Positions 51,374 through 54,191 of a stretch of DNA of 64,000 nucleotides are shown one piece after another. Position numbers and translations under genes: made by a program. Position 1 is the first letter of the stretch; every line of letters starts with the position of its first letter. Source of the stretch: Prochlorococcus sp. AG-402-I21 (GTDB taxonomy: Bacteria; Cyanobacteriota; Cyanobacteriia; PCC-6307; Cyanobiaceae); assembly GCA_003216955.1 (NCBI GenBank), contig QCHZ01000003.1, positions 1-64,000 of the forward strand, given 5' to 3'. The notes under the pieces were generated by a model that had not been told where the DNA came from, ran no database searches, and saw nothing but the letters and a program-made list of their open reading frames with translations.

Positions 51374-52285
51374 TTATCTTGCACCAAGTTGTGCTGCTAC
51401 CTCTCTTTCTAGTTTTTCATCTTTGATGTCAGGTAAAACGTTAGAGATTGGGGTTTTGTGGGTGCTATAGAAAAGCATTCCAATAAATACCATTCCTCCA
51501 ACAATATTTCCAACCGTCACTGGCAAGAAATTCCAAAAAATTACTTTTGTAAAAGGAATACCTGATCCCAGTAGCGGTCCAGTTGTATGCAAAAACATAT
51601 TAACTACTATGTGCTCCATTCCCATTGTTTGGAATGCAGTTATAGGTAGCCAGCAAGCAAGTATCTTTCCTGGAACACTTTTACTTACAAGTGCCATTGT
51701 TACACCTAAACAAACCAGCCAGTTTGCAATTACTCCACGTAAAAATGCAAGGAAAAAACCAGTACTGCCAAGTGCTTCATATTTAATAACTGTGTTTGCT
51801 TTATGTATAGCTATTATTTTTGCTGCAACAACTGCCCATCCTTTTCCACCTTCAGCAGCAGCTAATGGATCAACATTTCCAGCACTGGACAAGCTTATGG
51901 ATAGTAGAACTGCAACAAATGCTGTACCTAGAAAATTACCGATCCAAACCCATAGCCAATTCCTTACAGTTGCAGACCAAGAACTCTTTCCAGCCCATAC
52001 GGCCATTGGTAGTAACGCAAAATTACCAGTAACAAGCTCCATACCGAAAAGAACGATACTTGCAAAACCAAAAGGAAATATAAAAGAACCTAACCAAGGC
52101 ATCCCAGATTGAATACCTATAGTAATTGCAAGACATGTAGCTAAACCTAAAATTGCTCCTGAATAGAAGCCTCTTATTAGCAAGTTTTTTACGCTTACAG
52201 ATGATTTCTTTCCACCTGCAGCAATCATTCCATCTACCAATTCATTTGGTAGGACGTAGTCCATTTGTGAAGCACTTGAAGTCAT
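51374..52285 (-). CDS. focA: Formate/nitrite transporter (FocA/NirC family)
   Basis: Probable nitrite uptake channel, 303 aa, six membrane helices. It carries the FNT signatures FASIVLFGMELVTGNF and GVIANWLVCLGVTMAL, and the central pore His in MEHIVVNMF (FNT consensus near FEHSIANM). The position behind nirA on the same strand supports nitrite as substrate. It starts at ATG 52283-52285. The first 13 codons, the leader and the preceding spacer are part of a tandem duplication shared with the chimeric mini-ORF just upstream. Confidence 0.93.
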   Translation of the reverse strand: MTSSASQMDYVLPNELVDGMIAAGGKKSSVSVKNLLIRGFYSGAILGLATCLAITIGIQSGMPWLGSFIFPFGFASIVLFGMELVTGNFALLPMAVWAGKSSWSATVRNWLWVWIGNFLGTAFVAVLLSISLSSAGNVDPLAAAEGGKGWAVVAAKIIAIHKANTVIKYEALGSTGFFLAFLRGVIANWLVCLGVTMALVSKSVPGKILACWLPITAFQTMGMEHIVVNMFLHTTGPLLGSGIPFTKVIFWNFLPVTVGNIVGGMVFIGMLFYSTHKTPISNVLPDIKDEKLEREVAAQLGAR

Positions 52286-52371
52286 AAATTTAAAAATTAA
52301 GAAAAATAATTGTTTATAAAATCGAATTAGTTACTAATTCGATTCATAAATTTGGAAAAGATGTCGGGGCT
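52280..52371. repeat. Direct repeat copy 1 (92 bp, identical to 52483-52574)
   Basis: On the transcribed strand it runs from the last 14 codons of the chimeric ORF, through a 41-bp spacer, to the first codons of focA. It is identical base for base to 52483-52574, at an offset of 203 bp. Beyond these limits the copies continue to align but with 22-27% mismatches, so the whole duplication spans roughly 52245-52440 and 52448-52643. Confidence 0.97.
52320..52344. other. 25-bp near-perfect palindrome at the stop codon of the chimeric ORF
   Basis: Arms AATCGAATTAGT and ACTAATTCGATT around a single base. It covers the last four codons (R-I-S-N) and the stop of the chimeric ORF and extends into the spacer before focA. 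An identical palindrome ends nirA itself. It could form an mRNA 3' hairpin or a protein-binding operator. Confidence 0.8.
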
Positions 52372-52488
52372 ACCATTGGCTCTATTCACTAACGGTTTAT
52401 CTTTACCAAGGTTGTTAAACCAATTCATGAAACGAGAAATAGAATCTTTAGGTAAGACGTAGCTCATTTGAGAAGTACTTTGAGTCAT
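52327..52488 (-). CDS. Chimeric 53-aa mini-ORF: FocA N-terminus fused to NirA C-terminus
   Basis: An intact ATG-to-TAA frame between nirA and focA. Residues 1-14 (MTQSTSQMSYVLPK) resemble the FocA start MTSSASQMDYVLPN. Residues 17-53 match the last 37 residues of NirA, with changes only at S/P to N/N, L to I and I to V. The junction is at about 52440. It has the same leader as focA and the same 3' end as nirA, so any signals there are duplicated too. It lacks all catalytic residues of NirA and all pore residues of FocA. It is either a decayed cassette that happens to be in frame or a tiny expressed peptide. Confidence 0.7.
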   Translation of the reverse strand: MTQSTSQMSYVLPKDSISRFMNWFNNLGKDKPLVNRANGSPDIFSKFMNRISN

Positions 52489-52574
52489 AAATTTAAAAAT
52501 TAAGAAAAATAATTGTTTATAAAATCGAATTAGTTACTAATTCGATTCATAAATTTGGAAAAGATGTCGGGGCT
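52483..52574. repeat. Direct repeat copy 2 (92 bp, identical to 52280-52371)
   Basis: It spans the last 14 codons of nirA, the 41-bp spacer and the first codons of the chimeric ORF. The sequence is identical to copy 1, while the adjoining nirA and focA parts of the two units differ at roughly one base in four. Confidence 0.97.
52523..52547. other. 25-bp near-perfect palindrome at the nirA stop codon
   Basis: Same sequence as at 52320-52344: 12-bp arms around one base, overlapping the last nirA codons and the TAA. A poor T-run (TTTTATAAAC) follows in the direction of nirA transcription, so a weak terminator or a processing hairpin is possible. Confidence 0.8.
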
Positions 52575-54191
52575 GCCATTAGCTCGATTAATCAGGGGTT
52601 TGTCTTTGCCAAGAGGACTAAACCAATTCATAAATCGAGATAATGAAACAGATTTGTTACTTAAAAATATTTTTTCTTTTGCCTCAAAATTTGAGATAAG
52701 TAAATCTTTTAGTACATCTTTTAATTCATCTTGAGGGACAGATTTTTTTATTAATTCTCCTAATTTATAATTAGGTCCTTGTGATCCACCAATGCTTATA
52801 TCGTAAGCTTCAACGGTTTTCCCTTCTTTGTCTTTAGCTTTTTTACCAGTTAAACCAATTCCTCCCATGTAGGCTTGCCCACAACTATTAGGACATCCGG
52901 TCCAATGAATCTTTAATTCGTCTTTTAAATCTAATTCTGTGTCTAATTCATGCGAGATTTTTAAAGCTTGATCTTTTGTATTTGTTAGAGCGAATCCACA
53001 ATAGGTATTTCCAGTACAAGAAACAGTACCTGCTGCAATAGTTTCTGGTTCTAATGGAAACTTTTGTAAGAGAGATTGCCCCTTAAATGCTTCAATTAGA
53101 TTTGTATCTATACCAGTGAAAATAATATTTTGATCTTCGGTTAGTCTTATTTCATTATCACCAAAATTTTCGCATATATTTGCTAGATCTTGTAAATCTT
53201 CAGCTAAAAGGCGACCTACTGGAACATGAATTCCTGCAAAATATTTATGTTCTTGTTTTTGAGGATGAATTCCAAAAAATGACCTTGGTTTATTTGCAAA
53301 GATTGAACCTGGATCTTCTTTTAACTCTCCATATTGCTTTTCTACAAGATCTCTAAATGTTTCAATACCAATTTTATTTAAATAAAATCTAAACCTACCT
53401 TTAGGTCTTATATTGCGTTCCCCATTATCTCTCCATAGGGATAAAATAACTGATGTTAATTCATAAATTTTTTCTTCTTCAACCCAGGCATTTAATGGAA
53501 CTGCATATTCATTCATTACTGATGAAAGTACACCTCCAATCCAAACACTAAAACCTAAAACATTATTAATTTTAACTGGATGAAAAATTAAATCATTATG
53601 TAAAAGAAAATTATCTTTAGAGCCTGCTATAGCTGTGTTCCACTTTCTTGGAAGATTTGAAAATTCTGAATTTCCTTTGCCTTCTTTAATTAAATGATCT
53701 TGCATTTTTGATGTATATGTTCTTGTATCTATAATTTCTTCTGGATCAACTCCAGCGATGGGATTTCCAGTAACATTTCTTGGATTATCAAATCCAGATT
53801 GAGTTGTTGATATGTTTACTTTTTTTAATCTATTTAATATCTCAGGTAAATCACTAATTAAAACACCTCTAAGTTGTATATTTTGTCTAGTTGTTATGTC
53901 ACAACTTCCATTCTCTCCATATCTCGCAACAATTGACGCAATTACCTTTAATTGTTCTGCATTAATTATTCCATTAGGTATTCTTAACCTTAACATAAAC
54001 TTTCCAGGTGTTTTTGGTCTCCAAAACATCCCATACCATTTCAATCTTAATTCTAAATCTGTTTTATCCATTTCCTCCCATCCCATTTCAGCAAATTTGT
54101 CTATATCCTTTCCTATTTCAAGTCCATCTTTAGCAGCTTTATTTTTTTCAACTTGATTTAGTTTTTTGCCTTCTAGATAATATTGAACCAT
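52530..54191 (-). CDS. nirA: Ferredoxin-nitrite reductase
   Basis: Six-electron reduction of nitrite to ammonium with reduced ferredoxin. 553 aa with two ferrodoxin-like half-domains each followed by a siroheme/4Fe-4S part. The cluster and siroheme cysteines are C392-x5-C398 (SCTGNTYCG) and C433-x3-C437 (GCPNSCG). Siroheme-binding basic residues occur in TRQNIQLRGV and the RPKGRFRFYL region. There is no C-terminal ferredoxin domain. Its start is ATG 54189-54191, about 53 bp downstream of a perfect NtcA box. Its 3' end is duplicated downstream in the chimeric ORF. Confidence 0.97.
   Translation of the reverse strand: MVQYYLEGKKLNQVEKNKAAKDGLEIGKDIDKFAEMGWEEMDKTDLELRLKWYGMFWRPKTPGKFMLRLRIPNGIINAEQLKVIASIVARYGENGSCDITTRQNIQLRGVLISDLPEILNRLKKVNISTTQSGFDNPRNVTGNPIAGVDPEEIIDTRTYTSKMQDHLIKEGKGNSEFSNLPRKWNTAIAGSKDNFLLHNDLIFHPVKINNVLGFSVWIGGVLSSVMNEYAVPLNAWVEEEKIYELTSVILSLWRDNGERNIRPKGRFRFYLNKIGIETFRDLVEKQYGELKEDPGSIFANKPRSFFGIHPQKQEHKYFAGIHVPVGRLLAEDLQDLANICENFGDNEIRLTEDQNIIFTGIDTNLIEAFKGQSLLQKFPLEPETIAAGTVSCTGNTYCGFALTNTKDQALKISHELDTELDLKDELKIHWTGCPNSCGQAYMGGIGLTGKKAKDKEGKTVEAYDISIGGSQGPNYKLGELIKKSVPQDELKDVLKDLLISNFEAKEKIFLSNKSVSLSRFMNWFSPLGKDKPLINRANGSPDIFSKFMNRISN

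Follow-up and report, generated by a model that had tools for sequence, protein, structure and literature searches.

The closest described relative of the small gene analysed here comes from WH7803, where SynWH7803_RSS12335, a 44-aa ORF with two predicted helices and no assigned function, lies on one mRNA with nirA and nitM (=focA) (PMC9430850). Strong nitrogen-dependent induction of this ORF was reported, its RNA-seq signal changing by +193.92 without nitrogen and by +238.82 at nanomolar nitrate, and nirA and the ORF followed different time courses despite the shared mRNA (PMC9430850). Its likeness to the NirA of NATL2A (44%) was already noted by the authors, whose study treats the single ORF; the family, the tie to focA and the phage copy presented below are not described there (PMC9430850). 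The WH7803 locus is part of the sample used in this work (L262). A second small protein of this pathway, NirP1, is able to target NirA in other cyanobacteria (PMC10907346). The nitrite channel itself provides a third reference. In S. elongatus, NitM of CC9311 and of MIT9313 works only after removal of its conserved C-tail, the naturally tail-less NitM of CC9605 is active, and Maeda et al. inferred the existence of an unidentified in vivo activator of NitM (PMC4390861). How low-light Prochlorococcus takes up and releases nitrite is relevant to the oceanic nitrite maximum (PMC10470740).

In the window, the stretch of 64,000 nucleotides of Prochlorococcus sp. AG-402-I21 that was analysed, three genes follow one another on the minus strand: nirA (52530-54191), encoding a ferredoxin-nitrite reductase of 553 aa; a mini-ORF of 53 codons (52327-52488); and focA/nitM (51374-52285), encoding an FNT-family nitrite channel of 303 aa. 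An earlier note on this DNA had described the mini-ORF as an uninterrupted frame with a FocA-like beginning and a NirA-like remainder, preceded by the focA leader and followed by the nirA 3′ end, and each element of this description was confirmed. The frame runs from ATG to stop. Its first 15 codons (MTQSTSQMSYVLPKD) are alike to the FocA counterpart (MTSSASQMDYVLPNE) and share a mean nucleotide identity of 80% with focA's own start, the FocA-start-like segment proper (MTQSTSQMSYVLP) covering codons 1-13 (52450-52488, minus strand). Between codons 16-53 and NirA residues 516-553, 34 of 38 positions agree (89%); the C-terminal 38 residues of NirA (52533-52646, minus strand) are homologous to the mini-ORF core and represent a further copy of the small protein, fused to NirA. 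No difference separates the 41-nt leader ahead of the mini-ORF from that of focA, nor the sequence on the 3′ side of the mini-ORF from the nirA 3′ end.

The nirA/focA junction is a 203-nt head-to-tail direct repeat whose copies are 86% identical overall, 100% identical around the spacer and diverged in the coding flanks. The nirA-proximal copy (52445-52647, minus strand) contains the nirA 3′ end, the spacer and the mini-ORF start, and the focA-proximal copy (52242-52444, minus strand) contains the mini-ORF core, the spacer and the focA start. Each unit is composed of a nirA-3′-end-like stretch, a stop within a hairpin, the 41-nt leader and a focA-like start, and the mini-ORF crosses the seam between the two units. 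The RNA hairpin over the nirA stop (52516-52553, minus strand; z=-4.4) recurs in identical form over the mini-ORF stop (52313-52350, minus strand; z=-4.4). In Synechococcus, strong hairpins between nirA and the small ORF (L262:3742-3838 and L254:3775-3850) are candidate sites of the RNA processing that has been proposed for WH7803. The junction had been attributed in the earlier note to a second nirA-focA cassette that recombined in and lost its middle. This history was rejected: a search of the window's own genome found no further copy of the mini-ORF/repeat region, relatives show only 203-bp units in 0-2 copies and nothing else left of a cassette, and the small gene existed before the chimera did. 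Local tandem duplication together with recombination and gene conversion accounts for the repeat and its 0, 1 or 2 copies.

Membership of the mini-ORF in a family of small proteins encoded between nirA and focA is firm. The family profile retrieves it from its own genome with E=2.2e-22, and the mini-ORF profile in turn matches 120 of 300 Cyanobiaceae genomes. Stand-alone homologues, counted after exclusion of weak, tail-only and paralogue-only matches, occur in 114 of 134 focA-bearing genomes and in 0 of 166 focA-lacking ones (Fisher p=2e-62, uncorrected for relatedness). They are 40-53 aa long and usually sited between nirA and focA, a position that the mini-ORF shares on the same strand. Most members start with M-x(4-9)-D-x-F-S-R-F-V-N-W, end with D-x-F-S-K/R-L-M-N-R-I-S-G and have no FocA-like start. 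The mini-ORF, a low-light-clade member, carries the core motif D-x-F-S-R-F-V-N-W ... D-x-F-S-K-L-M-N-R-I-S with the invariant residues S18, W23, D42, S45 and N49; its family core, K14-N53, lies at 52330-52449 (minus strand). The peptide gene was found in none of about 94 genomes that have nirA and lack focA, and in four loci where nirA is located elsewhere (L133, L134, L142, L146) it is still placed just upstream of focA, which together indicate that the gene tracks the channel gene and not the reductase gene. Among 386 genomes of the wider phylum no convincing member was found outside Cyanobiaceae, the two best matches (E about 2e-4 to 4e-4) being partial and lying within 352-codon frames. 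Searches of Pfam, NCBIfam and PHROGs with the mini-ORF gave no match, its relatives gave weak PHROGs matches only, and a PDB profile search with the peptide returned only weak, biologically implausible matches, the best of which (a haemagglutinin, E 0.027) was taken as chance.

Several observations concern the distribution of the family at its edges. The HLVI cell AG-363-P06 carries a transferred nirA-focA cassette (PMC6370341), and this horizontally acquired cassette (L223) contains the small gene. Paralogues of about 38-40 aa (MDFFSAFVNWFS...) lie away from nirA/focA in L095, L114 and L138; as read by eye, one is near purT and another near an apparent chlorophyll-binding antenna gene. In L111 (G127) an intact small gene stands beside a focA whose frame breaks off close to the start, through either sequencing error or recent loss.

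Since stand-alone homologues occupy the same slot and have no FocA-like start, the small gene must have come before the chimera. The residues at the fusion point fit this order of events. K14-D15 of the mini-ORF agree neither with FocA, which has N-E there, nor with NirA, which has no D, and D15 is near-invariant in the stand-alone family; because these residues match the stand-alone family, an ancestral small gene with a replaced start is the simplest history. The first ~7-13 codons of this gene would have been swapped for the focA start region through local tandem duplication in this low-light (LLI-type) clade, and NirA would have gained the complete peptide as its C-terminal tail, with gene conversion keeping both copies alike. 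The fusion reading of the earlier note thus stands as regards an in-frame FocA/NirA chimera that plausibly is an expressed small protein, and is given up as regards the remains of a second cassette, as the stand-alone family is older.

Protein-level conservation was evident across the family. None of 119 ORFs contained an in-frame stop, and 119 and 110 of them contained stops in the two shifted frames. The dN/dS values by group ranged from 0.09 to 0.45. Among the carrier strains of the LLI-type mini-ORF, dN/dS was 0.115 against 0.114 for the NirA core, a value partly confounded by gene conversion with the NirA tail; those of the wider family are not subject to this confounding, NirA there being mostly tail-less. 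The AF2 model of the mini-ORF contains helices at residues 14-28 and 42-52 (helix 1 and helix 2 of the family core) and no tertiary fold (pLDDT 65, pTM 0.29), so that the family feature of two helices connected through a loop is present with modest confidence. Both predicted helices have hydrophobic moments that exceed most shuffles (p=0.006-0.05), and the peptide is predicted to be a short amphipathic two-helix protein. A further member was found in a cyanophage. Two IMG/VR contigs, one of 57.5 kb and one of 81 kb, share 16 kb of identical sequence and code for an intact 48-aa peptide (L266:8001-8144, IMGVR_UViG_3300025118_000016; L267 the same). Its gene is separated from psbA by about 1.6 kb, and a gene for a phage DNA polymerase is close by. 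Neither nirA nor focA was found within 8 kb of the phage gene, and among INPHARED phages the peptide was unmatched, the nearest records sharing psbA only. The cyanophage copy is independent evidence for a selectable role of the peptide. On balance, the mini-ORF is a lineage variant of a conserved small-protein gene and is probably functional, its product serving as an accessory peptide of nitrite entry and reduction at FocA/NirA. We infer that the peptide is translated and acts at the FocA/NirA interface. It would be located on the cytoplasmic side of FocA/NitM, coupling or permitting nitrite entry together with NirA, and could do so by serving as a dock between NirA and the channel, by modulating channel opening, or by both.

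The channel side of this interface carries its own regulatory element. FocA ends in a conserved charged C-tail, DEKLEREVAAQLGAR (51377-51421, minus strand), a segment reported to be autoinhibitory in other picocyanobacteria (PMC4390861). In FocA proteins encoded beside the peptide gene this tail is near-invariant. The sole tail-less cases in this sample are G245 and G299 (L159, L160), where the tail was lost by frameshift and its relic, KPEREIATELYVQ, is found out of frame; in both genomes the peptide gene is a recognisable pseudogene (start ATG to ATT, indels). G245 is presumably CC9605. Together with the inactivity of tail-bearing CC9311 and MIT9313 NitM and the activator postulated to relieve it (PMC4390861), these observations raise the possibility, still an unlikely one, that the peptide is the activator of Maeda et al. 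and binds the FocA/NitM C-tail, releasing autoinhibition. Against this, the tail loss in G245 and G299 is a single evolutionary event, and focA has been kept and the peptide gene lost in sponge-symbiont Synechococcus and in G063, G094, G115, L256, L259 and L261, all of which retain the C-tail, somewhat diverged in the sponge symbionts. The existence of several focA lineages without the peptide gene indicates that the peptide is not indispensable. A strict rule by which a C-tail requires the peptide gene was put to the test and does not hold in several lineages. A bolder version, which must be regarded as distinctly unlikely, would have the peptide open the autoinhibited nitrite channel through its C-tail and so be the switch that has been missing, with the NirA-fused form positioning the reductase at the channel and the phage copy controlling host nitrite supply during infection.

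On the reductase side, the peptide has been joined to NirA on more than one occasion. The first half alone forms the NirA tail in several Prochlorococcus/Synechococcus lineages. The second half alone is fused to NirA in UW105, UW140, AG-670-F04 and G089, the stand-alone peptide gene being a relic or missing in AG-670-F04 and G089; in L145, L147, L155 and L251 the NirA C-terminus consists of this half only, of the GGTDFFSRFMNRISN type. These second-half tails are a fusion separate from the NirA tail of the window. Type II NirA (G004 and others, without focA) ends at residue 508 and is tail-less. The repeated fusion of the peptide, complete or in half, to the C-terminus of NirA, the adjacency of the gene to nirA and the precedent of NirP1 for small proteins on NirA (PMC10907346) would agree with a peptide that acts mainly on NirA, as a NirP1-like regulator or as a docking tail. 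This reading is rather unlikely, as the gene follows focA, being absent from nirA-only genomes and remaining beside focA when nirA is elsewhere, and as the tail is undocked in the single-chain AF2 model of NirA, where it lies unpacked on the core with low confidence (pLDDT <50 over most of 510-553).

The comparison of close relatives bears on whether the mini-ORF has a function in the LLI-type clade at all. In a genus sample of 41 genomes, window-type nirA with adjacent focA was found in 21 (window genome counted), with nirA 93-97% identical to that of the window. The mini-ORF is present in 17 of these 21, and in all 17, closed genomes among them, it is intact with 53 codons; the absence from close relatives, or the stops, that the earlier note had named as counter-evidence were thus not observed. 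Its suggestion that the frame was intact by chance was likewise not upheld, in view of the 203-nt tandem repeat, the 17 of 17 intact frames and the same-slot homologues across Cyanobiaceae. Copy number varies from zero (L007, L014, L016, L018) to two (L023), and every closed genome with window-type nirA has at least one copy. The zero-copy genomes are dispersed over the nirA tree, which is consistent with repeated collapse of the 203-bp repeat; alternatively, the zero copy number could possibly reflect collapse by the assembler, all four being single-cell assemblies. The difference between NirA tail and mini-ORF core averages 9.4 nt within a genome and 13.8 nt between genomes (permutation p<5e-5), and the spacers of the two repeat copies are identical in 14 of 17 genomes. 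By these comparisons, the NirA tail and the mini-ORF core undergo gene conversion, which keeps them alike, and such conversion alone could maintain the intactness of the LLI mini-ORF core. The tandem repeat, the within-genome similarity and the variable copy number are what a by-product of tandem duplication would leave, kept open by conversion from a selected NirA tail and functionless in the LLI-type clade. This seems improbable, given that the stand-alone gene is conserved where NirA is tail-less, that K14-D15 derive from the family and not from NirA or FocA, that no closed genome with window-type nirA lacks a copy and that the N-terminal codons of the mini-ORF are nearly invariant although beyond the reach of conversion by the NirA tail. 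An RNA-level element, whereby the balance between nirA and focA expression depends on the repeat hairpin and the ORF either is incidental or serves in translational coupling, would agree with the stable hairpin of both repeat copies and of WH7803-type spacers and with the diverging time courses on the WH7803 mRNA (PMC9430850), but it is very improbable in the face of protein-type conservation with low dN/dS, of the retention of the ORF without a hairpin in L205, L227 and L229 and of a phage that has the ORF without the operon.

One odd chimeric ORF thus leads to an unnamed family of small proteins that is widely conserved in the marine picocyanobacterial nitrite operon, and the question of what activates FocA/NitM in vivo (PMC4390861) becomes testable. 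The small gene has repeatedly been fused to a neighbouring enzyme, rebuilt with the start codons of a neighbouring transporter and acquired by phage.

Compared with the described systems, RSS12335 and the mini-ORF are alike in place, strand, family core and the two helices, whereas RSS12335 lacks the FocA-like start, and in WH7803 there is neither the tandem repeat nor a tail on NirA. NirP1 resembles the mini-ORF as a small cyanobacterial protein tied to nitrite reductase and nitrogen control; however, it has 76-86 aa, an invariant Cys, three invariant Trp and four beta strands and is reported absent from Prochlorococcus (PMC10907346). The mini-ORF family is helical, with one Trp and no conserved Cys, and the mini-ORF itself contains one Trp and no Cys at all; membership of the mini-ORF in NirP1 was therefore ruled out, and no relation was detected. 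The autoinhibitory C-tail system of FocA/NitM belongs to the same operon, and its unnamed activator is a role that the peptide could fill (PMC4390861). In the genomes, the link between peptide and C-tail is a co-loss in one lineage only. In E. coli, FocA interacts with pyruvate formate-lyase, so that an FNT channel is coupled to an enzyme using or making its substrate. The analogy with the peptide system is one of working principle, the partners being non-homologous.
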